Positions 60 to 32,419 of a stretch of DNA of 45,352 bases are shown one piece after another. The translations under genes and the position numbers were made by a program. Under the pieces are notes generated by a model, which searched no databases, was not told where the DNA came from, and saw nothing but the letters and a program-made list of their open reading frames with translations. Position 1 is the first letter of the stretch. Each line of letters opens with the position of its first letter. This stretch comes from Saprospiraceae bacterium. GTDB lineage: Bacteria > Bacteroidota > Bacteroidia > Chitinophagales > Saprospiraceae. The stretch covers positions 1 through 45,352 of the forward strand of contig JAHDBF010000005.1 in the NCBI GenBank assembly GCA_020630525.1, given 5' to 3'.

Positions 60-3000
60 TTATTTTATAAGACTGACATTGCCAGAATGATTTATTTCTG
101 TTCCATCAATACATGTTGCTTTTAAACAGTATGCATAGACATCTGGAGAAAGTCTTTCTCCATTTAATGTACCATCCCAACCATTTCCTATTCCTGTGGA
201 CCTGAAGATTTCTTCTCCCCATCTATCATACACAAAAAATTCGTAATTTTCTGGTTGTATAATATGACTTCTCACTAAAAAGACATCATTGTTGCCATCT
301 TGGTTTGGTGAAAATGCATTTGGAATAAATATTCCTTCTGGTACTGTGCATGGCGGAGTTACAAATGGTTTTAGGATTGACGCTTCACCTTGACATCCAT
401 TTTCATCTGTCACTACGACGCTGTATTCGTTTAAATCATTGTTAGGATAGACGATTATACTTGGAGTAGTTTCTCCTGTATTCCATAATATATCATCACC
501 TTCCACTATTCCGTTTACTGTAATCGTACATGAATCACCTAAGATTAATGGATCATTTCCTTCTTTTGTTATATCTATTTCTATTGTAATTGGATCAACT
601 TCATAAGTCAAATTGATGGTATCAATACATATCTCTGCGTTATCTACCAATTGTACTGTAAATACTTTTGGCTCGGCATCTACAGAAACGGTAATTACAC
701 TTTCGCCTTGACCTGATACTATGCATTCTTCTGGTCCCCATACGTAAGTAAAGTCACTTCCTGCAATAATTGAGGTGTTAACCTCTAAATTAAATTCTTG
801 TCCCGCACAAGGACCAAAAGGTTCAGCAGGCCCTGAAATAATTAGAGAATCGCATAATGGCGGCTCAACTATTATTGTATCGATAATAACAACTACTGAA
901 GTGGTATCACTACAGCCGTATTGGTCTACAACTTTAGCGAATACTGTTTCTAATGAATCTACTTCATAGGAAATATTCGCTCCGGTTCCAATAACTTCTC
1001 CCATTGCATTACACCAAGAAATAGAGTCTAAAACAGAACCAGAAGTTGCAGAAAGTTCTACAGGATTATTCTCAGAAATCAATGTATCCTCTCCTATTCC
1101 AATAATTACTTCTGGCAAACTTGGAACTGTGATATCCATAGATGCTGAAATTCCAGGACATATTGAAGATAAATCTTCTAAGGTTACTGTATATGTTCCT
1201 ATTGAGTCATAAACATTAGTTGGCATAAACTCAGTTGATGTCTGACCGTCACCAAAATCCCAATTAAGTATGGAGTCTTGCCCCATTCCTGAAGCTGTAA
1301 ATATTAATGCAGTTTCACCACATTCAACAAGATCAAAAGTGAATGATAATTGTTGATTCTCTCCTATTTGAACGTTTAGGACTTCATCCGAAGTACATCC
1401 ATATTGGTTGCTTGCTGTAAAGTTTATACTAAAATCATCTGTTCCTGCGCCTACGGTAGGTACACCGTTTTCATCAACTGATATTAAGTTAGGGTGATCT
1501 TCCCAAACTAAGGTAATTTCTTGATCTGGATAATTGTTTGGAATCTCATATGCTATGGTATCACCTGGACACAAAACTAATGGATCGTCTTGTCCTAAAT
1601 TAATTGTACCGTTAATAATCTCCGTTGAAGAAGAAACATCGCAATTGGCATTTTGTGCTCCATCAATAATGGCATATACGGTTATTGGACCACTTTGATC
1701 AACATCCCATTGTAAAGTAGAACCTTCTCCAATTATATTTTCAAAATTTGGATCGGTAGACCAGATATAGTTTACTCCATTAATAGCATTATCTATTGTT
1801 AATTCAACTAGTCCATCACAGAATAATCCTGTACCATCTCCACCAATAATTATATTAGGAATTGCCAATGCTTCTGGAACTACAATTACTGATCCAGTAG
1901 ACACACAGCTTCCATCCGTTACCGTTACATTGTAAGTAGTTATTTCTGTTACAGAAACGATTGGGTCGGAAAAATTGATATTATCATTAAAGCTTAAACC
2001 ATCAGTAGGTTCCCAAGTATAATTCCAATTAGGATTACCATCCAAAATCAAAGATGTTTCATCACCATCACAATCTATAACTGGATCACCATTAAAAGTC
2101 GGTAATAAAGAATCATCTCCATCTGATGCAGTAAATTCTTGCGTTGTACTAGAAATACAATTATCAAAGAAAGTTGCCGTAGCAGATATATCTATTGTTT
2201 CTCCTGGTGTTAATTCTATTTGTATAGGATTACCATTTGCATTTATTATTTCTCCACCCTGCATATACGTCCAGCTAACTTCTGTTGCAGATGGAGATAC
2301 TGTAAATACATATAATAAAGGATCATCACCACATTCGACACCATCTGCTAATTGTCCAGAAATTGAAATCTCAGGAACTAGATCTGACTCATTCAATGTT
2401 TGTGTATTTGTCGTAACGGTACATCCATTGCTAAAATAAATAGTAGTTTGAATTATTGCTGATCCATCAACTGGGATGTTTATCTGAGGATTAATCTCAT
2501 TAGAAACAGATTCTACTCCGTTTATATTTATGTTCCAAGATATACTATCAATTTCAAATTCTTCAGGAAGGTTTGAAGGTGGAGCGAGTGTAACATTTAC
2601 TGATCCATCGTCCTCACAGCCTGTCACTTCGTATTCGAAGTCAACGCCATTACCGCCAGGTAATTCTAAGTCCTGCGTGTATTCAAAAACACAACCGTTA
2701 GAATAAGTAATAACCGTGGTTATTGTTGCTTCGCCAATAAGTCCACCGATGTCAACTGGGTTACCTTCAAACGGGAAAGATTCTCCATTCAAAGTTATTA
2801 TCCATTCAACGCTCTCGATTGAACCATCTATAACACTGTTTGTCTCATTTATTTGGATTACTTGCCCTTGTGGAATTAACACACAATCAGGGTCTCCATT
2901 GTCAGATCCATCACCTGGATTTCCTCCTGAAATAATTACGATTTCAAAATCAGGTGTAAGGTTATTGTTGTCATTTCCACCTGGTTCTCCGCCTTCGCCT

Positions 3001-5723
3001 AATACAGTATTAGGTAAATCGTAAGTACATCCATTCGTAAATGTAACTACTCCATTTACAGTAACTGTACCATTTGTAGCCACTTGTATTTGAGGCATTA
3101 AGTCAGTAGAATTTGTAATACTTCCATTGTCATCAAAAGTCCATGATACGCTTTCGATTTCATATCCATCAGGGAATGTCGGCAGTGATAGATCAACGAT
3201 AAATCCTTCTTCGATGCATTCTGCAACACTGAATCCTATTGATCCATTGATAAAACCACCATCTAATGCTATTTCTTCATTATAGCTAAAGACACATCCA
3301 TTGCTATAGGTAACCGTAGCAGTGATATTTGCATCACCTACTAATCCATTAATGTCTACAGGATTTCCTTGATAATTAAAAGTCTCCCCATCAACTACTA
3401 CAATCCAGTCTACATTTTCTATAGTACCATTAATAACGCTATACAGTTCTAAAATCTCTAAGGTTTGACCTGTTGTCAGTTCACAATCTTCTCCATTACC
3501 ACCAGAGCCATTTCCTCCAGTATTGTCACCTGGTACAGATACAACGATATCAAAATCAGGCGTCAAGTTGTTATTATCATTTCCTTCTGGAATTCCTCCA
3601 TCTCCTAAGATCGAAGGTCCAAAACTATACGTACATCCAGAATCACCATATACAGTTCCAGAGACTGTGGCAAATCCATTGTTAGGTATTTGTAAAGTTG
3701 GATTTAATTCATTTGATAAAATCGTATCTCCATTTATTACAATAATCCAATCAGCACTAGTAACAGTAAAATTTACTGTTGGAGGAGACAAAGTTACTGT
3801 GTAATTTTCTGCTCCACATTCATCGACTACATAACCAAATTCTGGTTCTCCGTTATTACTTCCTGTACCACCACCTAAGTCGAAAGTTTCCGAATTTTCA
3901 AAAACACAACCATTGTCAAATGTAACGATTACAGTTACGATTGCCTGTTCAGTAATGTCAGATCCAATATCTACAGGGCTGCCTTCATATGTCGTGATTA
4001 CGCCATTTTGGTCTACAGACCATGAAACGGAAATTATGTTTCCATCAATTGATCCGCCTGTTGCCATTAGTTCTAAAGTCTGATTATCAGATGAGATACA
4101 TCCACCTTCAGTACCTATCGATGTTCCTGAAATGGTAATATCTAAGTTTGGCACTAACTCATCATATACACTTACCGTTGTATTGGTAGTTTGAGAAGCA
4201 CAACCATTTGTATAATTTACAAAAAATTCTACTTCAAAAAGATCTGCTTCACTCACGATATTTATTGATTCAGTATCATAAGTAGTTGTTGTGCCGTCAG
4301 CAGTAATTGTCCAGTTATAAGAAGATACAACATTATTCCCATGATCAGAATTATCCGAAATAGAAATATTAAAACCATCATCAGTACAAGCAGTCAATGT
4401 CGCATCAAAATCTACGTTAGGGTGTGCTAAATCAAATATAGAAATATTCTCTTGGATATCATTTAGCGTACAACCAGTCGAACCTGTTCCAAATAAATCT
4501 ATGTCTAAAAAGTCATTTTCATTTAATTCTAACAAAACCGTTTGCTCGGTAAATGTTAGTTCTTGGCCATCATTTACTGCAACTGTCCATACAATATCTT
4601 GGACGGTAGTGCCATCAATATCTAGAATGTTATTAGATAATTCTAACTGTACATTTTCGCCATCACATTGAAGAACAGTCAATTCCATTCCCCCAGTGAG
4701 TCCATTTTCATATGCTGCAATCTGTACTTCAAAAGGAGCTGCTGAGCACTCCCCATTATCAGCTTCTAAGTGTACGGTATAATTACCTTCCTCTAAGTAA
4801 GTAACACTTGGGTTTTGCTCAGTTGAACTTGGTGTTAAATTTGGCCAATCAAAATACCAAATTAAATTATCAACATTTTCACTATTGTTTGTAAATGAAT
4901 AAGTTAATCCTGTGCAATTTTCCTCATTCACCTCAAAAGCAATATTTCCGTTTGATCCAGTGCCTCCATTCCCATCAAAACCATTTTGACAGTGACTAGT
5001 AAGAATAGATATTTCGTCTAAGTCCCAAACTGCTATATCTGCAATTTCACCAGCAGCACAGTATGCCGTCAATTCAAAATTAAAAGTCGTTTCTTCTGTG
5101 ATTGTAAATGCTGGATTATCAGTAAAATCAAAAGATTCTAAAGACCATTCTTGAGTTGTAAATTGATCAATTTCATGAAAAACTTCTGTTCCATTTACCA
5201 ATACCCGAACTGCGTATCTTGTTGGATAATTATTAGGTCCAGAAATTCCACCAATGTAACTAAAATTAAAAGGTGCCAATTCATAAAAAGACAATGCCTC
5301 TAACATACTAGGACCAGTGATCGGATCGATCGTTATATCAAATCTTACTGCCGCATCACTACCAGGAGTGTACAGACAATTTGTATCATAACCAACACAC
5401 ATTCCTGCAGAATCACCAATTCCTGGAGTACAAGAGTGAGGATTTGCAGTAGGTTCATTTCTATATAAATGCCCTCCTTCTACGCCTACTTGGATACAAG
5501 GATCATCGACGGACGAGGACGCAGTAAATTCTGTATAGTCAACATTTGTTCCTGTGATGGTATTTGAGATACAATCGTTAAAATCAAATGTTAGTGTAGC
5601 AGCTATGGCGTCACCGGAATTGGTTCCATCTGCACTGGGACACTGAGCAATTAAGTTGATTGAGAAACAACTAATTATTGCTATAATTAAAGTATGTATT
5701 GTCGACATTAGCTTCATAGCCAT
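60..5723 (-). CDS. Giant secreted surface protein with PKD/Ig-like repeats and a gliding-motility-associated C-terminal (CHU_C, T9SS type B sorting) domain
   Basis: 1887 aa; N-terminal signal peptide; PKD-like segment (LIWYFDWPNLTPSSTEQNPSVTYLEEGNYTVHL; WDFGDGQTSTEFMPTNVYDSIGTYTVTL); C-terminus IPNAFSPNQDGNNDVFLVR...YDRWGEEIFRS...GWDGTLNGERLSPDVYAY is the CHU_C signature. Confidence 0.93.
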   Translation of the reverse strand: MAMKLMSTIHTLIIAIISCFSINLIAQCPSADGTNSGDAIAATLTFDFNDCISNTITGTNVDYTEFTASSSVDDPCIQVGVEGGHLYRNEPTANPHSCTPGIGDSAGMCVGYDTNCLYTPGSDAAVRFDITIDPITGPSMLEALSFYELAPFNFSYIGGISGPNNYPTRYAVRVLVNGTEVFHEIDQFTTQEWSLESFDFTDNPAFTITEETTFNFELTAYCAAGEIADIAVWDLDEISILTSHCQNGFDGNGGTGSNGNIAFEVNEENCTGLTYSFTNNSENVDNLIWYFDWPNLTPSSTEQNPSVTYLEEGNYTVHLEADNGECSAAPFEVQIAAYENGLTGGMELTVLQCDGENVQLELSNNILDIDGTTVQDIVWTVAVNDGQELTFTEQTVLLELNENDFLDIDLFGTGSTGCTLNDIQENISIFDLAHPNVDFDATLTACTDDGFNISISDNSDHGNNVVSSYNWTITADGTTTTYDTESINIVSEADLFEVEFFVNYTNGCASQTTNTTVSVYDELVPNLDITISGTSIGTEGGCISSDNQTLELMATGGSIDGNIISVSWSVDQNGVITTYEGSPVDIGSDITEQAIVTVIVTFDNGCVFENSETFDLGGGTGSNNGEPEFGYVVDECGAENYTVTLSPPTVNFTVTSADWIIVINGDTILSNELNPTLQIPNNGFATVSGTVYGDSGCTYSFGPSILGDGGIPEGNDNNNLTPDFDIVVSVPGDNTGGNGSGGNGEDCELTTGQTLEILELYSVINGTIENVDWIVVVDGETFNYQGNPVDINGLVGDANITATVTYSNGCVFSYNEEIALDGGFINGSIGFSVAECIEEGFIVDLSLPTFPDGYEIESVSWTFDDNGSITNSTDLMPQIQVATNGTVTVNGVVTFTNGCTYDLPNTVLGEGGEPGGNDNNNLTPDFEIVIISGGNPGDGSDNGDPDCVLIPQGQVIQINETNSVIDGSIESVEWIITLNGESFPFEGNPVDIGGLIGEATITTVITYSNGCVFEYTQDLELPGGNGVDFEYEVTGCEDDGSVNVTLAPPSNLPEEFEIDSISWNININGVESVSNEINPQINIPVDGSAIIQTTIYFSNGCTVTTNTQTLNESDLVPEISISGQLADGVECGDDPLLYVFTVSPSATEVSWTYMQGGEIINANGNPIQIELTPGETIDISATATFFDNCISSTTQEFTASDGDDSLLPTFNGDPVIDCDGDETSLILDGNPNWNYTWEPTDGLSFNDNINFSDPIVSVTEITTYNVTVTDGSCVSTGSVIVVPEALAIPNIIIGGDGTGLFCDGLVELTIDNAINGVNYIWSTDPNFENIIGEGSTLQWDVDQSGPITVYAIIDGAQNANCDVSSSTEIINGTINLGQDDPLVLCPGDTIAYEIPNNYPDQEITLVWEDHPNLISVDENGVPTVGAGTDDFSINFTASNQYGCTSDEVLNVQIGENQQLSFTFDLVECGETALIFTASGMGQDSILNWDFGDGQTSTEFMPTNVYDSIGTYTVTLEDLSSICPGISASMDITVPSLPEVIIGIGEDTLISENNPVELSATSGSVLDSISWCNAMGEVIGTGANISYEVDSLETVFAKVVDQYGCSDTTSVVVIIDTIIVEPPLCDSLIISGPAEPFGPCAGQEFNLEVNTSIIAGSDFTYVWGPEECIVSGQGESVITVSVDAEPKVFTVQLVDNAEICIDTINLTYEVDPITIEIDITKEGNDPLILGDSCTITVNGIVEGDDILWNTGETTPSIIVYPNNDLNEYSVVVTDENGCQGEASILKPFVTPPCTVPEGIFIPNAFSPNQDGNNDVFLVRSHIIQPENYEFFVYDRWGEEIFRSTGIGNGWDGTLNGERLSPDVYAYCLKATCIDGTEINHSGNVSLIK

Positions 5724-14034: not shown

Positions 14035-17000
14035 GTGAAAAATTCTCTAATCAAATTAATCACTATGATTATTACTAAACAAAGGTTTTGGCAAATTGGT
14101 CATGCATTATTATTACTTATAATAATATCAACCAACTTAAGATCTGAGATCCAACCTAATTTATGTTTGGACGCCAACCTTAAATTAAATGAAAATAGCA
14201 TAATGGATTGTAATACTGCTCCAGTAATTACTTGTCCATCTCTTTATTTTGGCTGTGTTGGAGACAGCACAGATCCTGCAGATATTGGATATGCAACAGC
14301 AATTCCAGGAGACTCAGGATGTGAACAACCTATTGTAACTTATCAAGATTTTATAGAAGTAAACGAAGATTGCTACTACGAATTACACAGATTATGGACT
14401 GCAAAATATCCAGGTGATGCAAATCCATGGTTATACGCTGATTGTACGCAAATAATCGTTTTAAAAGATGATAAAGCCCCGACTATAGGTGCTTGTCCTG
14501 CAGACTTCAGTATAAATTCTACTGCAAATTGTCATGGTACTGCAAAATGGAACGATCCAATCCCAAATGACAATTGCGGTCTTGCAAGTTTTGAAGTCAA
14601 TTACCCAAGTGGTTCTAGTTTTCCAATTGGCACAACTACGGTAATTTACGTAGCAACCGACAACTGTGGATTATCTACAACATGTTCTTTTGACGTTACA
14701 GTAATTGGTGAATGTTGTGATGCTGCACCAATTATTACTTGTCCAAATGACGTATTGGTATGTCCTAACTCAAGTACGACGCCTAGTTTAACAGGTCAAG
14801 CAACTGCTGTGTCAGGAAGTTCTGAATGTAATGGTCCAATTGAAATAACATATACTGACAATATTCAAGCACTTGGTGATTGTGATAATTCATATAAAAT
14901 TACAAGAACTTGGATGGCATTTATGATGTCTGATCCAACTTTATTTAGCACTTGTCAACAAACGATAAACGTTAGAGATTTAGAATCACCAGTAACACTT
15001 TCATGCTCTGGGAATATTAATGTAGAAGCAGATGGATCAAGTGCTATAGTTAACTATGATGAGCCAACTTTTTCTGACAATTGTGGAATAGATAATATCC
15101 ATAGCACGCATAGTTCTGGCGATTACTTCCCTTTAGGATGCACCACAGTAACGTATACCGCATATGATGTATGTGGCAATGTTACAGCTTGTAGTTTTGT
15201 AATCTGCGTAGAAGATACTTCTTGCCAAACAGCACCAGTAATTACATGTCCACCAAATCGAATGAGATGTCCAGGAACAGGTGCAGCAGGATATCATCCA
15301 AATTCCACAGGATACGCTACTGCTACTGCTGGAGGTACAAACTGTGGCGACCCTATAGTTTCTTATTCTGATGATTATCATGATATGCCAGGATGTCCGG
15401 GAGGAATGAAAATTTATAGAACATGGACTGCAACTGATCCTGAGGATCCTACACTGTTTTCTACATGTCTACAGATGATAAACTTAAACGATCCAGTAAG
15501 CCCAACAGTGGTCACTTGCCAACCTGATATCACAGTTGAAACTACAGAATCTGGCATGAATGTTAATTGGACAACTCCTCCTACATTCACAGATAATTGT
15601 GGGATCGAAAACGTTAGTTCAACACATGTAAATGGACAATTCTTTACTATTGGGACAACAACAGTTGTTTATACAGCTACAGATATGTGTGGAAATTCTA
15701 CTTCATGCTCATTTAACGTTACTGTAAATCAATTGGCATGTAATGCTCCACCTATTATTACTTGTCCGCCAAACAGAATGAGATGTCCAAATGCGCCAAA
15801 CGCAGCCTACCATCCTAATTCTACAGGATACGCAACTGCTGTTGCTGGAGGAGATCATTGCGGTGAACCAATAATTACATTTACTGACGTAGAAGAAGAT
15901 ATGCCAGGGTGTATTCAAGGAAGAAAAATATACCGTACTTGGAAAGCAACTGATCCAGAAAATCCTGGTTTAGTATCCACTTGTACACAGATTATAAATT
16001 TAAACGATCCAATATCACCTACAGTAGTATGTGCAGATGATGTTGTAGTTAATTCTACAGATAACAATAGTGTTATTGTAAGTTTTGAAAACCCTACTTT
16101 TTCTGACAATTGTGGTATTCATGAAATAACATGCTCTCATCAAAGTGGTGATACATTCCCTGTAGGCATAACTACTGTAACATGCTCAGCAGAAGATTAC
16201 TGTGGTAATACTGTAAGTTGTTCTTTTGAAGTAGATGTAAGGCTAATTGAGTGTGCGACTGCGCCGATAATTTCTTGCCCTGAAGATGCTACATTATGTG
16301 TGAATGGTGACTACACTCCATCTGCACTTGGGTTTGCAACTGCAACAAGTGGAGGATTAAATTGTGGAAATCCTATAGTTAGTTATATTGATATTATCAT
16401 TGAAAATGGTCCTTGTAATTCACCAAAAGTGATTCACAGAAAATGGACTGCTACTGATCCTAACAACAGTGCATTATCTTCTTTATGCTATCAAACAATT
16501 AATCTAATCGACACAGAAGCTCCAGTTGTTATAGGATGTTCTGGTGATATTAGCGCAACTGGTGGACCAAACTGTGATGTTGCAGTAACTTGGGAAGCAC
16601 CTGTAGTTACAGACAATTGTAGTAATGTAACAGTTACAAGTAATTACCAATCTGGAGATATATTCTATGGAGGAAATACAGAAGTCATATACACTTTTAC
16701 TGATGCATGTGGAAATCAGAGTTCATGTTCATTCCATGTGATTGTTGCTTGTGGTTCTTTTGGTTGTGCAGAAGTGCCAACGATTAATTGCCCAGCGGAC
16801 AAATACTTATGTGTTGGTTCAGAAACAAATCCATCTGTTACTGGTCATGCTACTGCAACGCCAGGATTATCTTCTTGTGAAGAACCAATTGTCAGCTATA
16901 CTGACGTTATAATGAGTACTGGACCTTGTGCAGGAGCAAAAGTGATAAAGAGAATTTGGAAAGCAGAAGACCCGATTGACGGAACTATATTTTCTACTTG

Positions 17001-19797
17001 TGAGCAATTTATCACAACAACAGATAACTCTCCGCCAACATTTATCTACTGCCCAGATGACTTAGTATTGGATGGAGGAGCATGGTGTGATGCTGTTGCA
17101 GCATGGGGACCAGTAACCGCAACTGACAATTGTCAATTGCCGAATATTACATCTAATTATACTTCTGGAGTAGTATTAGGTGCAGGAGTTACAGAAATTA
17201 TTTATACTGCAACTGATGCTTGTGGAAACCAAAGTACATGTTCTTTTAATGTTATAGTTACATGTAATGATCCTTGTAATCAACCACCAGTAATCAATTG
17301 TCCAGGATCAGTTACATTATGTCCAGGATCAGCTTACGATCCATCGATAACTGGAAATGCGACAGCTACCCCAAGTAATAATTGTAGCACTGATATAGAT
17401 ATTATTTATCATGACCAAATTATCACAAATGGTCCTTGTACTGGAGCAATGGTTATTGAGAGAACTTGGACTGCCAAAGATCCAATGGATCCTAGTCTGC
17501 AGAGTCATTGTACACAAATCATAACATTAGGAGACAATATTCCACCAGCTATCTGGGAATGTCCTACTGATATAACAGTAAATTATGGAAGTGCTGCAAC
17601 TTGGTATTTGCCAAGTGCTGATGATAACTGCGGAGTCCAAAGTTTAGTATCTACACACGATAGTGGTACTGTTTTCCCTGTGGGTGTAACAACTGTCACA
17701 TATACTGCTGAAGATTTCTGTGGTAATGTAGTAGATTGCCATTTTAACGTAACAGTATTGGGACAGTCAGGTCACTTAGAATGTCCAGATGATATTTCTG
17801 TGCAGTGTGCTGCATCAGGTGGTACGTACGTAAACTGGAATACACCAAGTTATACAGGAGGAAGTTGTGGTGATTGTAACGATCAACAGATTAGCGGATT
17901 TATGTATATGGGATCGTACAATGGTCACCAATATTACTGCTCATTAAATCCTGCAAATTGGAACACTGCAAGTAGCATCTGTCAAGCGAATGGTGGATAT
18001 TTAGCAGCCATAGATGATGCAGGAGAAAATGCTTTCTTAGCGAATATATTGACTATTCAATCAGCATGGATAGGAGGAAACGATTTGAATAATGAAGGCA
18101 CTTTTGAATGGACTAACGGATCACCATTTAATTATACCAACTGGTATCCAGGACAACCTAACAATTACAACTATGACCAACATTGTGTAGAGATGTTACA
18201 CGATGGGACTTGGAACGATCAGTATGCAATTACGCAATTAGAATTTATTATGGAATTACCATGTTCTTCTGTACACCAAATTTCTGGTCCTCAGCCTGGA
18301 TCACATTTAGAGCCAGGAGTGTATGAAGTTGTTTATCAATTGGATGAATCGTGTGGAACAGAAACTTGTTCATTTAATGTTCGAGTTGAATCTTCGATTA
18401 CAATGAAATGCCCAGATGATGTAACGATTGCTTGTCCATCTGGAGCATCAGGAGTACATATTAACTGGGATACGCCAGTAGCAAGCTCTTGTTGTTCTGA
18501 TTGTGGATTGGGTGGCAATATCCCTGGATTTATGTATATGGGTACGCATAATGGACATTATTATTACTGTTCATTAGACCCTGCGACTTGGCCGCAAGCC
18601 AATTCTATAGCGCAAGCAAATGGTGGATATTTGGCAGCAATTGGAGATGAAACAGAAAACGAATTTTTAGCTGGTATACTTACAATACAGTCAGCGTATA
18701 TTGGTTTAAATGATGCAAATAATGAAGGTCAATTTACTTGGTCTAATGGTGAGCCATTTGGATATTCAAATTGGTACCCACAACAACCAAACGACTATAA
18801 CGGATTCCAAGACTACGTTGAGTTATTAAGTAATGGTCAATGGAATGATCAATACAATAATCAACCATTAGAGTTTATTATGGAAATTCCAGGTTGTATT
18901 AATATTCAACAGATTGGTGGACCAGCAGCAGGTACTTATATTGCAGGAGGAACGACTACAACGATCACCTATCAAGCGACTGATGATTGTGGAAATGTTG
19001 AAACATGTTCATTTAATGTCACTGTTGATAAAAATGAGTGTAATTCTGGAGGTTTGAATTCAGATGTTTGCTGGATAGAACACATTGGTTTTGGTGACAT
19101 TAACAATACTACTGGAAGCGATGGAGGTTACGAAGATTATACAAACCAATGTACAACTGTACAACCTGGCATTGCTTATCCAATAAGTTTAACTCCTTGG
19201 TGTACATCAAATCAACACAAGGTATTTTGGAAAGTATGGATCGACTTCAATATGGATGGAGATTTCAATGATAATGGAGAATTCGTTGCATATGGTAATG
19301 GAGCAGGCACTATTAATGGGAATATTACCATGCCTTTATCAGGAATATGGTCTGGTTCTACGACGATGAGAATAGCCATGAAGTTGGGGACATATCCTAC
19401 TGGACCTTGCGAGGTATTCAGTCATGGAGAAACAGAAGATTATTGCTTAGAAATAATCAATGCTGATGTTAAAGGTGATGACACGATCGAATTAAGATCA
19501 AGCGATAAAGAAAATGAAGCAATATTATTGGTGGGATCAAAAGAAGAAATTGATACTAAGTTTCAAATTTCTCCAAATCCTGCCACTGATTTTATACATG
19601 TTCAATTTTCTAATATTGATAAAATTATTGAATCAGGAATTTATAATGTTGCCGGGAAAAAGATTATGAGTATTGAAAACCTGAATGATGAATATATCAG
19701 AATAGCGTTATCAAAAATTGAAAACGGGATTTATTTCCTAAATGCAATTTATGAAAATGGGAAAGTTGAAACGCAACGATTTATCGTTCAAAAATAA
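14035..19797 (+). CDS. Giant secreted surface protein: seven HYR-type repeats, two C-type-lectin domains, GEVED-like domain, T9SS type A sorting domain
   Basis: 1920 aa; repeated [AP]P.I[TS]CP and GTTTV.Y.A.D.CGN...CSF.V motifs; CTL blocks (YYCSLNPANWNTASSICQANGGYLAAI...AWIGGNDLNNEGTFEWTNGSPFNYTNWYPGQPNNY...WNDQ); CTSNQHKVFWKVWIDFNMDGDFNDNGEFVAYGNG (GEVED-like); C-terminal FQISPNPATDFIHVQF...GIYFLNAIYENGKVETQRFIVQK. Confidence 0.93.
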   Translation: MKNSLIKLITMIITKQRFWQIGHALLLLIIISTNLRSEIQPNLCLDANLKLNENSIMDCNTAPVITCPSLYFGCVGDSTDPADIGYATAIPGDSGCEQPIVTYQDFIEVNEDCYYELHRLWTAKYPGDANPWLYADCTQIIVLKDDKAPTIGACPADFSINSTANCHGTAKWNDPIPNDNCGLASFEVNYPSGSSFPIGTTTVIYVATDNCGLSTTCSFDVTVIGECCDAAPIITCPNDVLVCPNSSTTPSLTGQATAVSGSSECNGPIEITYTDNIQALGDCDNSYKITRTWMAFMMSDPTLFSTCQQTINVRDLESPVTLSCSGNINVEADGSSAIVNYDEPTFSDNCGIDNIHSTHSSGDYFPLGCTTVTYTAYDVCGNVTACSFVICVEDTSCQTAPVITCPPNRMRCPGTGAAGYHPNSTGYATATAGGTNCGDPIVSYSDDYHDMPGCPGGMKIYRTWTATDPEDPTLFSTCLQMINLNDPVSPTVVTCQPDITVETTESGMNVNWTTPPTFTDNCGIENVSSTHVNGQFFTIGTTTVVYTATDMCGNSTSCSFNVTVNQLACNAPPIITCPPNRMRCPNAPNAAYHPNSTGYATAVAGGDHCGEPIITFTDVEEDMPGCIQGRKIYRTWKATDPENPGLVSTCTQIINLNDPISPTVVCADDVVVNSTDNNSVIVSFENPTFSDNCGIHEITCSHQSGDTFPVGITTVTCSAEDYCGNTVSCSFEVDVRLIECATAPIISCPEDATLCVNGDYTPSALGFATATSGGLNCGNPIVSYIDIIIENGPCNSPKVIHRKWTATDPNNSALSSLCYQTINLIDTEAPVVIGCSGDISATGGPNCDVAVTWEAPVVTDNCSNVTVTSNYQSGDIFYGGNTEVIYTFTDACGNQSSCSFHVIVACGSFGCAEVPTINCPADKYLCVGSETNPSVTGHATATPGLSSCEEPIVSYTDVIMSTGPCAGAKVIKRIWKAEDPIDGTIFSTCEQFITTTDNSPPTFIYCPDDLVLDGGAWCDAVAAWGPVTATDNCQLPNITSNYTSGVVLGAGVTEIIYTATDACGNQSTCSFNVIVTCNDPCNQPPVINCPGSVTLCPGSAYDPSITGNATATPSNNCSTDIDIIYHDQIITNGPCTGAMVIERTWTAKDPMDPSLQSHCTQIITLGDNIPPAIWECPTDITVNYGSAATWYLPSADDNCGVQSLVSTHDSGTVFPVGVTTVTYTAEDFCGNVVDCHFNVTVLGQSGHLECPDDISVQCAASGGTYVNWNTPSYTGGSCGDCNDQQISGFMYMGSYNGHQYYCSLNPANWNTASSICQANGGYLAAIDDAGENAFLANILTIQSAWIGGNDLNNEGTFEWTNGSPFNYTNWYPGQPNNYNYDQHCVEMLHDGTWNDQYAITQLEFIMELPCSSVHQISGPQPGSHLEPGVYEVVYQLDESCGTETCSFNVRVESSITMKCPDDVTIACPSGASGVHINWDTPVASSCCSDCGLGGNIPGFMYMGTHNGHYYYCSLDPATWPQANSIAQANGGYLAAIGDETENEFLAGILTIQSAYIGLNDANNEGQFTWSNGEPFGYSNWYPQQPNDYNGFQDYVELLSNGQWNDQYNNQPLEFIMEIPGCINIQQIGGPAAGTYIAGGTTTTITYQATDDCGNVETCSFNVTVDKNECNSGGLNSDVCWIEHIGFGDINNTTGSDGGYEDYTNQCTTVQPGIAYPISLTPWCTSNQHKVFWKVWIDFNMDGDFNDNGEFVAYGNGAGTINGNITMPLSGIWSGSTTMRIAMKLGTYPTGPCEVFSHGETEDYCLEIINADVKGDDTIELRSSDKENEAILLVGSKEEIDTKFQISPNPATDFIHVQFSNIDKIIESGIYNVAGKKIMSIENLNDEYIRIALSKIENGIYFLNAIYENGKVETQRFIVQK

Positions 19798-24544: not shown

Positions 24545-25492
24545 TTAAAGATTTATGGACATACCAATGGTAAAATAAGAAATTCCATATCCCAATTCTG
24601 CAAATGGTTCAAAACGATCAGTAAGCTGATATCGCAACCCAGCCAATCCTGACCAAAAGATATAATTACTAGTTCCATCACCACAAAATGGCTCACAATC
24701 TCCTCCGAATGAGACTAATGTATATCCTAACATTAAACCAGCATATGGATCAAATTTATCACCCAACAAATCAAAGTGATATGTTCCTCTAGCACCAAAG
24801 ATCAAGTATCTATAATTCCAATCGTAACCATCTACATTTCCAAAGTTTGAAGTTGCAAACCCTGCATACCCGCCTAGCTTAATATTTTTCTTAAATGTTC
24901 TATTATAAGACAAAGAGACTGGAGGAATCCCTCCTGACCCACCAAAATTAGACAAGAATCCAACTCCGAAATTTAAAAAACTTCTACTTTCACTTGAAGC
25001 TATCTTAAGCTTGGCTGGATTATCTTTTTTATTAGATTCTTTTCTAGACTTTGTATCAGAGTCATTTGAAATCTTGCTATTCTTATTATTTTTCGATTTT
25101 CCATTATCATCCTTATTCACTTTATTATTTTCAAATTCACTATGACTAGCATCAACCAAAGAGTTCTCCATTTTTATGTTTGTCACATCCAACCTTTTCC
25201 AAGTATTCTTTTTATTGGTAGATGTATTGTAAGTAATCAAAGTGCTTCCAGAAATGACTTCCAAAAATAAATTTTCAATCTCAGAACATTTATATTTAGT
25301 ATCAGAAACTTGATCATAATATCTGTAAGAATCTTGATTGTCTATCTTAGTCTTGATACCATTCTTTGTGGCTTCTATTAGTTTAACAGTTTTTGTTGGT
25401 TCATATTCCCAATTGCCAATGGCTGATTGTGCCTGGACAGTCGAACACATTATTTGCAAAATTAGTATTGTAAAAATTAATTGATATTTCAT
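24545..25492 (-). CDS. Exported protein with low-complexity linker and C-terminal outer-membrane beta-barrel
   Basis: 315 aa; signal peptide; Asn/Lys/Ser/Asp-rich linker; alternating barrel-like strands ending YGISYFTIGMSINL. Confidence 0.7.
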   Translation of the reverse strand: MKYQLIFTILILQIMCSTVQAQSAIGNWEYEPTKTVKLIEATKNGIKTKIDNQDSYRYYDQVSDTKYKCSEIENLFLEVISGSTLITYNTSTNKKNTWKRLDVTNIKMENSLVDASHSEFENNKVNKDDNGKSKNNKNSKISNDSDTKSRKESNKKDNPAKLKIASSESRSFLNFGVGFLSNFGGSGGIPPVSLSYNRTFKKNIKLGGYAGFATSNFGNVDGYDWNYRYLIFGARGTYHFDLLGDKFDPYAGLMLGYTLVSFGGDCEPFCGDGTSNYIFWSGLAGLRYQLTDRFEPFAELGYGISYFTIGMSINL

Positions 25493-25521
25493 AGTTATAA
25501 TTATTTAGTTTAGGGTGAATG

Positions 25522-26922
25522 TTATGAGAAAAAACATATATCTACTGAATCGAATAATAAGTCGCTTTGATCAAAATTATATATCAAATCATCTATAATA
25601 TATGTTTCACTATTTTGATCAATAATACCATCTGTATCTGAATCTAATTCATCATCTAAATCATTGTATTTTTGTGCGCTATTATAATCTTGCTGATTGA
25701 CTTCTATAATACCATCATTATTGGTGTCCAAATTTAAAGTAGATGAATCCATCACTTCAAAACCGTGATCAATAATTCCATCTGCGTCTTTATCTAAATC
25801 TTTACCTGAATATGAATAAAACTCTTGACTATCATCTATTATGCCATCATTGTGTGAATCTAAAGTTATTGATGAAGAATTTGGGTCTATGTGATTCAAG
25901 CTTTCTGATTCTACGTCAATAATTCCATCATCATTTGAATCTAATAATTTGTCATCAATTTCCTCCAAACTAATCAATGCTTCGGTTGCTTCATCGTTGT
26001 CTTCTTTATACCTTTCTTTAGCATCGTTTTCTACTAGACCAATATTTGATTCAATATTATTTTCATTATCAAATTCAATAGAATGAAACTCATCATTAGT
26101 TATCGTTTTATCTTCCTCTGAAGCAAAATGACCAGAATTGCTTTCGTCAATTTCGTATGAATCTTGATTTATAGAATTGAGATTTTCATCTACCCTATCA
26201 TCATAGGTATTTTCTTCCGTAATAAACCACTCTTCATTTTTAAGTTTATTATTTGGTCTAAGTTCAGATTGTGTTTCTGAATCATTTTCAATTACAATAG
26301 ATTCAGGACTAGACTCTATAAATTCTGGCTCTTCTTTCGTTTCATAATCTATTGATTCACTTTGACTCTCATTACTGACGCCTATATATTCAGAATTGCC
26401 GTCAATTTGTGATTTGTAATCATCAACTGGAATACCATCGTGATTATCATAAGAGTCAGAAATATAAGTACTAAGTTCCTCCTTTAATAAAGTATTGTAT
26501 TTGCTTCCTCGCCATTCGAATTCGCCATAAGGTCCCATTTCATTTCTTGCATTTATAAAAGCATCTTTAAAAGAAAATTCAAATTCGTTGTTTATTTCTT
26601 CTGAGTTGGCAATGTCTTCATTTTCATTTAAATCCACATTTATATCATCTTTTGCAGTTTGATAATCTTCGAGCCAAACATTATCATCTTGTGCCGCGGA
26701 TTTTTCCTGCTGTACTTCGCTAATCATCTCTTCATTAACTTCTATCTCAGCAACATTTATGACTTTCTCTGACGTTGTATTATCAGTACTTTTAAAAGGG
26801 CTATCACATGATTGTGTTAACAAAGGAATAGTAGCACCACCAAAAAGGATTTTTGATGCTTGTTTTTTATCATTCAATAATGATTTGAAAAATTGTTGTT
26901 TTGTGTTTTTTCTATCTTTCAT
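25522..26922 (-). CDS. Very acidic, probably lipid-anchored protein with five DxDxDGIID Ca-binding-like loops
   Basis: 466 aa; N-terminal ILFGGATIPLLTQSCDS lipobox-like; loops DSNDDGIID, DSHNDGIID, DKDADGIID, DTNNDGIIE, DSDTDGIID. Confidence 0.75.
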   Translation of the reverse strand: MKDRKNTKQQFFKSLLNDKKQASKILFGGATIPLLTQSCDSPFKSTDNTTSEKVINVAEIEVNEEMISEVQQEKSAAQDDNVWLEDYQTAKDDINVDLNENEDIANSEEINNEFEFSFKDAFINARNEMGPYGEFEWRGSKYNTLLKEELSTYISDSYDNHDGIPVDDYKSQIDGNSEYIGVSNESQSESIDYETKEEPEFIESSPESIVIENDSETQSELRPNNKLKNEEWFITEENTYDDRVDENLNSINQDSYEIDESNSGHFASEEDKTITNDEFHSIEFDNENNIESNIGLVENDAKERYKEDNDEATEALISLEEIDDKLLDSNDDGIIDVESESLNHIDPNSSSITLDSHNDGIIDDSQEFYSYSGKDLDKDADGIIDHGFEVMDSSTLNLDTNNDGIIEVNQQDYNSAQKYNDLDDELDSDTDGIIDQNSETYIIDDLIYNFDQSDLLFDSVDICFFS

Positions 26923-26926
26923 TCAA

Positions 26927-27511
26927 TTAGAATTTAATATCGCATTTAGAATTATTGCAGGATTTTTTACCTTTCCAATAGGTATAACTTTGATTTATTA
27001 ATGTACTATAACATTTAGGGCATACTAGCTTATTCTCGTATTGTAATTTTAGATTATCTAGCTTTTCCATTTTTTTAATCGCATGATTATCTAAAGAACC
27101 AATAAGCATTGAGAAAAGTCCGATCGAAAGAAAAAGTACATACTTAATGTTATCTGGAATACTTTGTCCAAATTGAAAAAGAATTAATATGGCTAAAATT
27201 ATCATTGCAATTTTTACAAAAATCAATTTTGATTTACTACTGATAATTTCATTTCTATGGTCTTGATAATCTTTGTAGTCCTCTAAAACAGATTGAAAGA
27301 GATTCGTATAATTTGGTTCTATATTTTGATCTAAATTAGTATTTGCCTTTACAACTAAATCTTTGATTTCTATAGGTACTAATTTTAATATTTTTCTTTT
27401 ACCATAGTGTCTATTTGATGATTTCGCATTATAGACATTCCGTCCATCGCAAATTGAGACTCGAGAAAAACTATTTGTATTTTTTGAATATTCGAGAGTT
27501 CCAATTACCAT
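26927..27511 (-). CDS. Membrane protein with C-terminal zinc-ribbon-like motif
   Basis: 194 aa; two hydrophobic segments (IFVKIAMIILAILILFQFG; YVLFLSIGLFSMLIGSL); C-terminal CPKC...CNNSKC. Confidence 0.7.
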   Translation of the reverse strand: MVIGTLEYSKNTNSFSRVSICDGRNVYNAKSSNRHYGKRKILKLVPIEIKDLVVKANTNLDQNIEPNYTNLFQSVLEDYKDYQDHRNEIISSKSKLIFVKIAMIILAILILFQFGQSIPDNIKYVLFLSIGLFSMLIGSLDNHAIKKMEKLDNLKLQYENKLVCPKCYSTLINQSYTYWKGKKSCNNSKCDIKF

Positions 27512-28365
27512 TTCTTATTCCTAGATTTTAATGATGAATTAGAATTACTAAAATACTTTTTCAGAGTTTCATGTATTACTTTAATGTTTAAGTCTTTACG
27601 TAAACGATCTTTATTAAGCATTAAGCAAATAGCATTTTTTATTTCTAAAGGCATTTTTGATTCTGAAAATGTTAAGGTACTATTTATCAATTTTTGAATA
27701 TTCTTTTCTTTCAATTGATTCCCACCCAAAATCATTATAGGGCATTTATTTCCGTATAACTCGAACATAATTAATGCCAAAGACCACAGGTCACTTTGAT
27801 AAGATGCAATCCCGTATTTAAGAAATTCTGGAGAACGATAATTTAAGTATTTATTTAAAAGAACTTGGCGTCTATTTGATTGATTAGGCCCATTCAAATT
27901 TGATATTATTGGAATTAAATCTCTTCCATTTTTTGACATTAGTACATTGTACTTATTAATGTCACCAATAATTACCGACGCATTATGCAAGTGAGTAATT
28001 CCAGCTATTAGCCCATTTAACACTCTATTCTTTTGATATAATGTTAATTCAGATGACCCAAAATAATCAGACAACGTATTACTGCAATCAATAGATAATT
28101 CTGTGAAATGTTGGCTTTTCTTTTTAAAACTAATTTTAAAACACTTAGTTACGTCAACAATATTTTTATGCTTAGAAATACTTTTTAGTAATGAATACTC
28201 TTTGATAAGAAATTTTCGATGATCTTTGGTAATAGGTGTTTTGAGTGTAACCTTTTCTTTAGTATCCGACTTTACAACTTCGTAATAAATATAGTTGTCA
28301 ACTATTTTTTTACCATTCGTACTTAGCGGAAATTGATATGACTTTAGAAAATTTATAAACTTCAT
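27505..28365 (-). CDS. Protein kinase-like protein (probable pseudokinase or atypical kinase)
   Basis: 286 aa; VTLKTP + E helix, HLHNASVIIGDINKYNVLM, YRSPEFLKYGIASYQSDLWSLALIMFELYGNKCPI; DFG and Gly-rich loop not recognisable. Confidence 0.78.
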   Translation of the reverse strand: MKFINFLKSYQFPLSTNGKKIVDNYIYYEVVKSDTKEKVTLKTPITKDHRKFLIKEYSLLKSISKHKNIVDVTKCFKISFKKKSQHFTELSIDCSNTLSDYFGSSELTLYQKNRVLNGLIAGITHLHNASVIIGDINKYNVLMSKNGRDLIPIISNLNGPNQSNRRQVLLNKYLNYRSPEFLKYGIASYQSDLWSLALIMFELYGNKCPIMILGGNQLKEKNIQKLINSTLTFSESKMPLEIKNAICLMLNKDRLRKDLNIKVIHETLKKYFSNSNSSLKSRNKKW

Positions 28366-28473
28366 TATGATGTATTTATATCACAAATCTATAGACAAGT
28401 GACATAACAAAATGAAGTAATTTATAAGTGTAAGACTTTAGTTTAAATCTGTATAAATACCGATGATAATTGT

Positions 28474-29205
28474 TTACCGAACATCTATTAATTTGGTAAT
28501 AACGGCATCTTTTTTCCTTACAGAAACTGGAATATTTGTACCTGTCGTTAATACTATTACGCCTTCTTTATCATAACTATCTGCAAAATCAATATTAACC
28601 AAATAGGATTGGTGACAACGGACAAAATTAGCAGGAAGCCCTATATCATACTCTTTAATATTTTTAGAAGTAATAAACTCTCGACCATCAGTTAAAAAGA
28701 ATTTTGTATAGCTGCCTTCTGACTTGCAGTATGTCAATTCATTTAACCTCACCACTTGATATTTATCGTGAAAATGTAAGACTATTTTATCAATTGTGCC
28801 TACTAATTTTTTCTTACTTATCTCAAGCCTTTCTTTTAATAAAAGTTCTTTTTTTAAGTCTATCTTTTGAATTGCAGATTTTAATTCAAAAGAAGAAATA
28901 GGTTTTAGTAAATAATCAATCGCACCAACTTTCAGGGCCTGAAGTGCATATTCGTGGTAAGCAGTAATAAAAATTACATTAACTCCTTCTAATTCAATTC
29001 TATCCAAAAAATCAAATCCAGTACCATCTGGCATATTAATATCTAAAAAAATTAGATTTGGCTTGGTAGATCTAGTGACTACAATAGCGTCTGAGATGTT
29101 TTCACACTCGCCAACAATCTCTAGAGTATCTGCATGTGCTTCTAACAAACTTCTAAGTCCTGATCTAACAAAAGGTTCATCATCAACAATAAGTGATCTT
29201 ATCAT
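28474..29205 (-). CDS. LytTR-family response regulator
   Basis: 243 aa; receiver domain (SLIVDDEPFVRSGL...LIFLDINMPDGTGFDFL...FITAYHEYALQALKVGAIDYLLKPI) and LytTR domain (LTYCKSEGSYTKFFLTDGREFITSKNIKEY...FVRCHQSYLVNI). Confidence 0.95.
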   Translation of the reverse strand: MIRSLIVDDEPFVRSGLRSLLEAHADTLEIVGECENISDAIVVTRSTKPNLIFLDINMPDGTGFDFLDRIELEGVNVIFITAYHEYALQALKVGAIDYLLKPISSFELKSAIQKIDLKKELLLKERLEISKKKLVGTIDKIVLHFHDKYQVVRLNELTYCKSEGSYTKFFLTDGREFITSKNIKEYDIGLPANFVRCHQSYLVNIDFADSYDKEGVIVLTTGTNIPVSVRKKDAVITKLIDVR

Positions 29206-30680
29206 ACTATTCTTTTTATTGGTATTGCTAAGGTTACAATTGTGCCAGTACTTTCTTCTATGTTATTAATCTCAAATTTACCCTTAGTATTTAATTGCTG
29301 ATTTAAAATATTAATTCTTTCGGAAGTTATCTTTTGCGAAAGTGAATTTTTAGTAGCATTAATAGATTTGAATTCTGGATAATAGCCCTTACCATTATCT
29401 ACAATTTTACATTGTAGCAAATCATTACTAATTTCCATCTTAACTGTAATGAGTCCTTTTTTATCTAATCCACTTATTCCGTGTTCAATTGCATTTTCAA
29501 CAAAAGGTTGTATCATCATTGGAGGAATACACATTATACTGGAATTGATTGCAGGATCAACTTCAATTGAGTAATTGAATTTATTAAAAAAACGTAATTG
29601 CTGTAATTTAAAATACGAATGTAAGGTATCCAACTCTGAATCTATAGATACGAATTTTTTATACGCATTACTAAAAACTTGAAACAATAACTTAGAAAGC
29701 ATCTCTAAATATTCAACTGCTTGGACACTCTTCCCTCTAAGTACATGTGAATGAATTGCAGTCAGAGCGTTAAAAATAAAATGTGGATTCATTTGTTCTT
29801 GTAGAATGCTTTGTTCTAGTTCAATAGTTTGATTTTCCAATTGTTTTTTAACAATAGAAATTTTATAATTGTAAATTATGTAGTAAAACATCATTGACAA
29901 GAATAATATGATTCCTACAATTCCTATATTTTGAATTTTATACCTTCTTAATTCATTTAATCGATTTTTTTCTTGAATCAGTTTATATGATGTATGGCTT
30001 GTGCGAATTTTATTTATTTTATTATTAATTAAGCTATTAAGGATACTCTGCTTCTTGTTTTTATATAGTTCCTGATAAAGCTGTGCATTCAATATTTCAT
30101 TATTAAAAGTATAGTATTCATAATAAGTACTATATAGATTTTCATACTCCGTACCTCCTAAATATTTCGCATTTGTATGATGGATTGAATCCATTAAAAA
30201 AGATAAATACTCCTTTTCTGATTCAAACTCATGCTCATTTAGTATATATTTTTTGACTAAATTTAAATTCTTATTTTCAGTAATTCTAAAATTGTTTTTA
30301 AGAATATTAAAGACGAAATCGAATAAACTATTTGCCTTCTGATCAAGATCAATAACTTCATACAGTTTTGCTATTTGAGTAAGGTCATTGACATTCATCA
30401 CTAGTTCATCATACTGCTTACTAGGCTTTTCAACGATATTAGATTTAATAATTCTTTCTAGATTATTCAATTCTCTTACAAACTTTACATCATTTTGTAA
30501 TTCCAATTTCTTGTCTGATGATTTTATCACTTCAATCACCGATTCAAATTGTCCGGTTGATAAGGAATTATATATGGAGTCCATCGAAAATTCACTCATG
30601 CAAAACAATCTACTAGCTAATAGAATATATAATAGGCTAAGCGAGATTTTTTTTATTGTATGATTGGAAAATATTTTCAC
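29202..30680 (-). CDS. LytS/YehU-like sensor histidine kinase (His_kinase + HATPase)
   Basis: 492 aa; signal peptide, TM segment, QEQMNPHFIFNALTAIHSHVL, QPFVENAIEHGISG, IVDNGKGYYPEF. Confidence 0.93.
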   Translation of the reverse strand: MKIFSNHTIKKISLSLLYILLASRLFCMSEFSMDSIYNSLSTGQFESVIEVIKSSDKKLELQNDVKFVRELNNLERIIKSNIVEKPSKQYDELVMNVNDLTQIAKLYEVIDLDQKANSLFDFVFNILKNNFRITENKNLNLVKKYILNEHEFESEKEYLSFLMDSIHHTNAKYLGGTEYENLYSTYYEYYTFNNEILNAQLYQELYKNKKQSILNSLINNKINKIRTSHTSYKLIQEKNRLNELRRYKIQNIGIVGIILFLSMMFYYIIYNYKISIVKKQLENQTIELEQSILQEQMNPHFIFNALTAIHSHVLRGKSVQAVEYLEMLSKLLFQVFSNAYKKFVSIDSELDTLHSYFKLQQLRFFNKFNYSIEVDPAINSSIMCIPPMMIQPFVENAIEHGISGLDKKGLITVKMEISNDLLQCKIVDNGKGYYPEFKSINATKNSLSQKITSERINILNQQLNTKGKFEINNIEESTGTIVTLAIPIKRIV

Positions 30681-32419
30681 TTTAGTCCTTGATTATTTAG
30701 TATTGGGATTTTTAATAAATATTTAAAATCATCGTTAGACATAGATTCACCAATTGATATATTTTTTTTGCGGTCGAATACTTCGGTTATATTTTCCAAT
30801 CTTTGGATTGCCGCTTCCATCTCATCGGAAATAGAAAGTTCGGATTTTTCTAATACATATTTATCTCCATGTTTTTGATCAATAATTAGACATACAATAT
30901 TATTTTCCTCTTCCACAAAATTAATTTCATATTTAAAGTTTGTATTTGAATTTTGCTTTCCAATTTCTTGAAGATTTTCAACAAAAGGTTCTAGTATCAT
31001 AGAAGGCACAAAAATATTGGCAGAATCAATTTCATTTGAAATATTCGTTTTTAATTCAAAATTAAAATTAGGGTTTAACATTTTTAGTTTAAAATATTGA
31101 TTTATTGCTTCTATCTCTTCATCTAAAGGCCGAATAATTTCTCTTGAATTTTCTAAATTAAGCCTAATGGTTTTTGAAAATGTAGATAAATAATCCGCAG
31201 CTATTTTATTTTTACCTTCTTCAATAAATTGAACAATATTGTCTATTTCTCTAAAGATAAAATTTGAACTTAATTTTAACTTGAGTAACTTTTGCTCTTT
31301 TTTCAAAACATTGTTTAATGATACTTCTTTTACTTTATCTTGCCGAACTTGTTTTATTTTCAATAAGAATATCCCAAACAAGAGACCACCTAATGTTAAA
31401 ATTACATTCCGCGTCAATCTAGCAAATTTTAATGCATTTTTCTTTTCTTTAATGATTTCTTCCTTTTCTAACCCAATAGTATAATTGACTTCTTCAGTGC
31501 CCTTTGAAATTTCATCTTCAAAATTTTCGTCTATTAATTGTTGTTTTAGCACCATAAACTTTTTCACGGAATCCATCTCCCCAATAGATGTATACGATTG
31601 CATCAAGCCATCGTAGATTAGCGTTTTCAAGTCTTGCGGAATTTGATTATGAAAATAATTTCGACAAGAGTCTAACATTTCAATTTTCTTTTTAATCAAA
31701 GAAGGGGACTTATGATATCCTGCAACATTGAAATAACTTATCGCGATAATTTTCGCATCAGGAGTTTCTTTGCTTTTTGCAACCTCGATCGATTTGAGTC
31801 CGTAAATTATACTGCTATCAAGTTTACCCAAATTACGATAATACCTTGCCATATTATTATAGAAATACCCACTCAAAGGTTGCTTAGATTCAATTGAAAA
31901 TCTTTTGGCTTTTTCCAAAAGCTTAAATGCCTTTTTCTCACCACCTCTTTTATTCTCCATGGTACTCAAATTAATAAAAGACCGAATTAACATCGTAGTG
32001 TCTTTTAAAGATGAGTACACATTTATAGCTTTATTTAAAAACAATATAGACGTATCTATATTTCCAATTCTTAACTCAAAATGTGATTTATTCAAAAAAG
32101 CGCTTGCACTTAATGGACTGACTGTGTCAGACAAATTTAATTTTATTCGTTCGTATGTAATTTTTGCATTTGAAAAATCCGACAAAGAATTGTAGGCTTT
32201 AACCAATTCGATCAAATATTTCGTTTCTGATTGAGGATAATTTTGATCGACATACAATTCTTTTATTAGAATATCTTTTACTTCATTATAATTATTTTCT
32301 GCTATCAATGAGTCAATCTTTAAATCAAATTGACTTTCTTGACAATGTAGAAGATTGCCAATACTAAGTATCAAGAATAAACTTAAAGAATAAATAACAT
32401 CATTTTGAATTTGTCTCAT
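30677..32419 (-). CDS. TPR-sensor LytS-like histidine kinase homologue, catalytically degenerate
   Basis: 580 aa; TPR region, TM (VILTLGGLLFGIFLLKI), then LKLSSNFIFREIDNIVQFI...EEIEAINQYFKLKMLNPNF...VPSMILEPFVENLQEIGKQ aligning with the neighbouring kinase but lacking the His and G-boxes. Confidence 0.85.
   Translation of the reverse strand: MRQIQNDVIYSLSLFLILSIGNLLHCQESQFDLKIDSLIAENNYNEVKDILIKELYVDQNYPQSETKYLIELVKAYNSLSDFSNAKITYERIKLNLSDTVSPLSASAFLNKSHFELRIGNIDTSILFLNKAINVYSSLKDTTMLIRSFINLSTMENKRGGEKKAFKLLEKAKRFSIESKQPLSGYFYNNMARYYRNLGKLDSSIIYGLKSIEVAKSKETPDAKIIAISYFNVAGYHKSPSLIKKKIEMLDSCRNYFHNQIPQDLKTLIYDGLMQSYTSIGEMDSVKKFMVLKQQLIDENFEDEISKGTEEVNYTIGLEKEEIIKEKKNALKFARLTRNVILTLGGLLFGIFLLKIKQVRQDKVKEVSLNNVLKKEQKLLKLKLSSNFIFREIDNIVQFIEEGKNKIAADYLSTFSKTIRLNLENSREIIRPLDEEIEAINQYFKLKMLNPNFNFELKTNISNEIDSANIFVPSMILEPFVENLQEIGKQNSNTNFKYEINFVEEENNIVCLIIDQKHGDKYVLEKSELSISDEMEAAIQRLENITEVFDRKKNISIGESMSNDDFKYLLKIPILNNQGLK

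Follow-up and report, generated by a model that had tools for sequence, protein, structure and literature searches.

A LytS-type protein lacking its phospho-acceptor histidine is retained beside an intact kinase in Saprospiraceae: a candidate heteromeric receptor

The window analysed here, a 45,352-nucleotide stretch of contig JAHDBF010000005.1 from a Saprospiraceae bacterium, carries on its minus strand a LytS-type protein that lacks the phospho-acceptor His, followed by an intact 492-aa LytS-type kinase and their cognate LytTR response regulator (Table 1). A preliminary description had reported an intact 580-aa frame at 30677–32419, and we recovered a minus-strand ORF of exactly that length. 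At 28% GC, a random run of 580 codons would contain ~54 stops, and the probability of finding none is 3.5e-25, so the ORF is not due to chance. Consecutive genes overlap by 4 bp, the pseudokinase and kinase at GTGA (30677–30680) and the kinase and regulator at 29202–29205. The earlier wording, "fused in an operon", therefore stands for the operon but not for the proteins, which are separate. The overlaps point to probable translational coupling of all three, which would yield matched protein amounts. A 21-bp-spaced direct repeat, CGATTATCA, lies upstream of the window operon and was seen in this single species only; no LytTR binding-site footprint shared by the upstream regions of the three operons described below was found.

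Table 1. Positions of the operon genes, their parts and the neighbouring syntenic genes in the window
Feature	Position	Strand	Basis
Pseudo-histidine kinase, 580 aa: signal peptide, TPR, TM, DHp, degenerate CA	30677..32419	-	ORF, Pfam, full-length orthologues L075/L107 and L076/L108
TPR superhelix, aa 44-278, probably periplasmic sensor	31586..32290	-	Pfam TPR_12, AlphaFold2, PDB fold comparison
Transmembrane helix, aa 336-356	31352..31414	-	Hydropathy maximum, sequence
DHp dimerisation domain, aa 379-447, His replaced	31079..31285	-	Pfam His_kinase aa 375-447; 38-48% identity among orthologues
Asn386 codon AAT, phospho-acceptor position	31262..31264	-	Codon read; Glu and Lys in orthologues
Degenerate ATPase (CA) domain, aa 448-572	30704..31078	-	20-33% orthologue identity vs 48-59% in partner; HATPase_c absent
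Intact LytS-type kinase partner, 492 aa, GTG start within pseudokinase stop (GTGA)	29202..30680	-	ORF, Pfam, His300 codon 29781-29783
LytTR response regulator, 4-bp overlap with kinase	28474..29205	-	Response_reg and LytTR above cut-off; 65-66% identical in two other operons
Ser/Thr-kinase-like protein without DFG Asp, syntenic in G227	27505..28365	-	Pfam Pkinase scores well; motif reading
194-aa membrane protein, syntenic in G227	26927..27511	-	48% identity
Acidic protein, repeated D-x-N-x-D-G-I-I-D motifs, syntenic in G227 (L107:12354-13979)	25522..26922	-	27% identity; sequence
Putative outer-membrane beta-barrel, syntenic in G227	24545..25492	-	42% identity; weak OMP_b-brl

Homology of its DHp domain to Pfam His_kinase (PF06580; 35.9 bits against a cut-off of 25.2) places the pseudokinase among LytS-type histidine kinases; its two orthologues also score above the cut-off, at 55.9 and 49.1 bits, and in the window protein TPR_12 is likewise above its own. 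AlphaFold2 modelled the TPR region with pLDDT of about 80–92 over most of the first two thirds, lower past residue 180, and comparison of residues 19–303 with the PDB returned the TPR folds of LGN, KLC and Rap at Z scores of 16–21. Confidence was low over DHp and CA, where the alignment held three sequences, so we make no fold claim for the CA domain. Pseudokinase and partner each have a signal-peptide-like start and one further transmembrane helix ahead of the kinase module, and for this reason the TPR region is probably periplasmic. Spacing from the transmembrane helix to the His position, a fuzzy guide to pairing, was 39 against 42–43.

Reading of the codons confirmed the two residues first reported at the phospho-acceptor position, Asn386 (AAT, 31262–31264) in the pseudokinase and His300 (CAT, 29781–29783) in the partner. 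The His of the NPHFxFN motif is absent from the pseudokinase, which reads SSNFIFR, with Arg also replacing the Asn that adjoins the His position in FIFN. A substitute His was sought in its DHp domain, and there is none; the only cytosolic His, residue 517, sits in the old G1 box. Another DHp His as acceptor is thereby ruled out for the window and G227 copies; the G231 copy has His at other DHp positions, not common to the orthologues. In the ATPase domain, the reported changes of the N box (ENAIEHG to ENLQEIG) and G1 box (DNGKG to DQKHG) are real, but the catalytic Asn and the first Asp survive in the window copy, so these two changes alone do not prove loss of ATP binding. The N-box Asn is gone from both orthologues (VDQIIKLN and IERIFELN), as is the first G1 Asp. 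In the window protein the G1 glycine is changed and the G2 Gly-Thr lost (STGTIVTL to NDDFKYLL); the Gly-Thr is absent from all three pseudokinases. Pfam, to which the preliminary description had pointed as a check, agreed: His_kinase matched both proteins, and HATPase_c matched only the partner, weakly. By its N, G1 and G2 boxes and by HATPase_c, the pseudokinase lacks the full set of ATP-binding features of LytS-type kinases.

We searched 398 genomes of the family with the pseudokinase and found full-length relatives in two uncultured Saprospiraceae of other genera, G227 (8e-54; contig CALLPN010000003.1) and G231 (3e-50; JAHDFN010000018.1; both from genome_contigs). Both keep the gene order pseudokinase, intact kinase, LytTR regulator. 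Neither orthologue has regained the His, having Glu (L075/L107) or Lys (L076/L108) in its place, and the H-box regions of the three proteins read SSNFIFR, SPEFVIN and NPKFILG. As far as this alignment goes, the loss of the His is conserved and the specific Asn, whose conservation had been raised as a check, is not; the Asn accordingly has no special role, and a conserved Asn as alternative acceptor is ruled out. A search of the same 398 genomes with the partner alone gave strong full-length matches in the same three genomes and no others, so pseudokinase and partner are strictly paired, always found together, in the three orthologous operons known from these searches. No further members of the pair were added from 309 more complete genomes of the family, no orthologue was found in the five other members of the genus searched, and a single-sequence scan of genome_contigs and viral_contigs gave no close orthologues. 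G308 has a lone TPR-LytS kinase that keeps the His and is accompanied by a regulator of its own, an arrangement that may resemble the ancestral one. One LytS-like relative of the pseudokinase (L109; 1e-6) is on a contig titled as a Roseburia hominis MAG (JAETOE010000014.1); its branch is very long and its placement or labelling uncertain.

Orthologous proteins share 26–27% identity, and synonymous sites are saturated. The ORFs are nonetheless intact, at 557–580 aa, in three genera; an uninterrupted, alignable and colinear ORF at such divergence is itself evidence of selection. This bears out the original view of the gene as retained and not decaying. Loss of catalytic residues in a gene kept across lineages (three genera, with Asn, Glu or Lys for His) is a feature that the protein shares with the pseudo-histidine kinase class.

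Constraint was then compared by region, with identity differences bootstrapped over alignment columns. The two proteins gave opposite patterns. Pairwise identities in the CA domain were 23, 20 and 33% for the pseudokinase vs 53, 48 and 59% for the partner (means 0.25 and 0.53; difference -0.285, CI -0.37 to -0.20). In the N-terminal sensor the order was reversed, at 24, 25 and 40% vs 13, 22 and 24% (means 0.30 and 0.20; difference +0.099, CI +0.05 to +0.15), the partner alignment here consisting of only three divergent sequences. DHp identities were 48, 38 and 46% vs 45, 54 and 64% (means 0.44 and 0.54), a difference whose CI spans zero. When DHp-minus-CA identity was contrasted between pseudokinase and partner, the interval was 0.025 to 0.351, excluding zero. 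The pseudokinase has thus held its sensor and DHp while its ATPase domain drifted, and the partner has held DHp and ATPase domain while its sensor drifted.

Loss of the His was rare among the related proteins compared. We gathered 174 distinct LytS domains from this genome and its relatives by similarity to the window protein, hence not as an unbiased survey, and 170 had the His; all four exceptions sit in tandem operons beside an intact LytS kinase. Among the 18 PF06580 matches listed in this genome, the window protein was the only His-less one of those compared. Two LytS-type kinases of ~950 aa at L068:5718-12753 in the same genome have altered H-box flanks (QPHIIAN and SPHFISN) and keep the His. 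The fourth His-less protein belongs to an operon in G129 (L106:6269-11105), where three LytS genes, the short third one having Asp for His, are followed by a LytTR regulator. All four pseudokinases, that of G129 included, matched His_kinase above cut-off and lacked HATPase_c; their intact partners showed both, HATPase_c weakly. A tree of kinase modules with 36 rows placed the three orthologous pseudokinases in one clade (support 99/100) and their partners in another (100/100), while the G129 protein grouped with its own tandem neighbours (100/99). The window and G231 pseudokinases were long branches, which limits the precision of this tree, and a larger quick tree misplaced the window protein. 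A single His loss for all four proteins was rejected (AU test, p=0.002); the His was therefore lost in a tandem LytS operon at least twice. Within the taxonomic order, LytS genes repeatedly occur as overlapping tandem pairs in which neither His has been lost (L070, L071, L072, L211 and L011); L070 and L071 are from the window's own genus but belong to a different lineage.

Histidine kinases are usually regarded as homodimers. Because of the contrasting constraint, the strict pairing, the 4-bp overlaps, the retained DHp, the separate loss in the G129 tandem operon and the recurring tandem pairs, we consider it fairly probable that the two proteins form one heteromeric receptor of LytS type. The pseudokinase would provide sensing and dimerisation and exert allosteric control over the intact kinase: its TPR domain, which is probably periplasmic, would receive the signal, and its DHp helices would pair with those of the 492-aa kinase. 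The latter would bind ATP, carry the phospho-acceptor His and phosphorylate the LytTR regulator, its kinase/phosphatase balance being set allosterically by a pseudokinase with no chemistry of its own. A sensor acting on its partner in this way would fit the constraint pattern; the physical heterodimer, the direction of control, the ligand and the topology are inferred. Against a heteromer, the partner has a signal peptide, N-terminal domain and transmembrane helix of its own and could work as a homodimer, and the DHp conservation could come from response-regulator binding.

The main rival explanation builds on this last point. Here the pseudokinase is a homodimer acting directly on the regulator, its DHp binding and sequestering it, or promoting its dephosphorylation, upon a TPR signal. 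DHp helices of histidine kinases also bear the regulator-docking surface, which counts for this reading, as does the fact that DHp is the conserved part of a protein encoded in one operon with its regulator. However, neither the His position nor its flanks are held constant among the three copies, and the drifted partner sensor and the strict pairing with a kinase are less well accounted for, so we hold this explanation to be unlikely. The surviving N-box Asn and G1 Asp of the window copy suggest another, in which the pseudokinase still binds ATP and takes a catalytic or nucleotide-gated role, transferring phosphate to the partner His in trans, as a His-less subunit can in principle do. That is improbable given orthologues in which both residues are gone, the G2 Gly-Thr missing from all three proteins and the absence of any HATPase_c match.

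The protein could instead serve, apart from the two-component pathway, as a scaffold on which further products of the cluster assemble, for instance the Ser/Thr-kinase-like protein at 27505–28365. The seven genes at 24545–32419 are indeed syntenic between the window and G227, but G231 retains only the first three, without the other four; pseudokinase, kinase and regulator therefore form the core, and we think a scaffold quite improbable. Finally, the long branch and degraded motifs could be those of a decaying paralogue, its frame still open by chance or recency. We give this very little credence, since the His is missing in three genera with full-length ORFs in conserved order, chance would have brought the many stops calculated above, and DHp constraint equals that of the partner within error.

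For comparison with known systems, DivL has a HisKA-type DHp, PAS domains and a conserved Tyr; the RocA gene lies outside the covRS operon; and the kinases BtsS and YpdA are intact and have no TPR sensor. Control of an active kinase by a pseudo-histidine kinase is established for DivL (PMC4211667, PMC12189002), RocA (PMC7380576) and an evolved ChrS (PMC9491836). We liken the window module to DivL and RocA as a functional class only; the module itself belongs to PF06580. DivL of Caulobacter, which lacks the phospho-acceptor His, regulates the active kinase CckA with its own catalytic activity dispensable (PMC4211667, PMC12189002), but it reads DivK~P, whereas the window module is of LytS type, with a TPR sensor, a free residue (Asn, Glu or Lys) at the His position and its gene in the partner's operon. 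RocA of group A Streptococcus, a membrane pseudokinase, shifts the kinase/phosphatase balance of CovS by direct contact; unlike the window protein it is not of the LytS family, has no TPR and needs only its N-terminal transmembrane domains (PMC7380576). The ChrS variant of Corynebacterium glutamicum is His-independent, has lost its CA domain, needs its DHp and acts via the paralogous kinase HrrS, but arose as a laboratory-evolved frameshift and is no natural conserved subunit (PMC9491836). RetS and GacS are paralogous kinases whose heterodimer sets kinase output, though RetS is a hybrid kinase with residual activities, encoded elsewhere (PMC12189002). BtsS/BtsR and YpdA/YpdB share the LytS kinase and LytTR regulator families with the window module (PMC5552118). 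Our literature search, in which few subscription journals were covered, returned HisKA-type cases only for heterodimeric or pseudo-LytS kinases, no pseudo-histidine kinase with a TPR sensor or as a dedicated operon pair, and no paper on TPR-LytS in Bacteroidetes.

In the Ser/Thr-kinase-like protein of the wider cluster, the Lys, Glu and catalytic-loop Asp/Asn positions are kept, but the DFG Asp is missing in both the window and G227 (IISNLNG and LLINIYN), so this protein too may be a pseudokinase. The acidic protein has a lipobox-like Cys near its N-terminus, and its repeats resemble calcium-binding EF-hand/dockerin loops. A broader reading, to which we would give somewhat less than an even chance, is that tandem kinase duplicates in Saprospiraceae gave rise, on at least two occasions, to a dedicated LytS receptor of two subunits, with sensing and dimerisation split from catalysis between operon paralogues, and that one lineage was coupled to this second pseudokinase and the acidic surface-protein cluster. 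If the heteromeric reading holds, the division of sensing and catalysis becomes directly testable in a small three-gene system, and the tandem LytS pairs with both His intact that recur in these bacteria may be heteromers too. Annotation by the DHp domain alone (PF06580) names inactive proteins kinases.

Elsewhere in the window are two large proteins linked to type IX secretion. One, a secreted protein of 1920 aa (14035–19797), combines eight HYR domains with C-type lectin and GEVED domains and carries a type IX secretion tail; the other, of 1887 aa (60–5723), has PKD/Ig domains together with a type IX secretion signal of the CHU_C kind.
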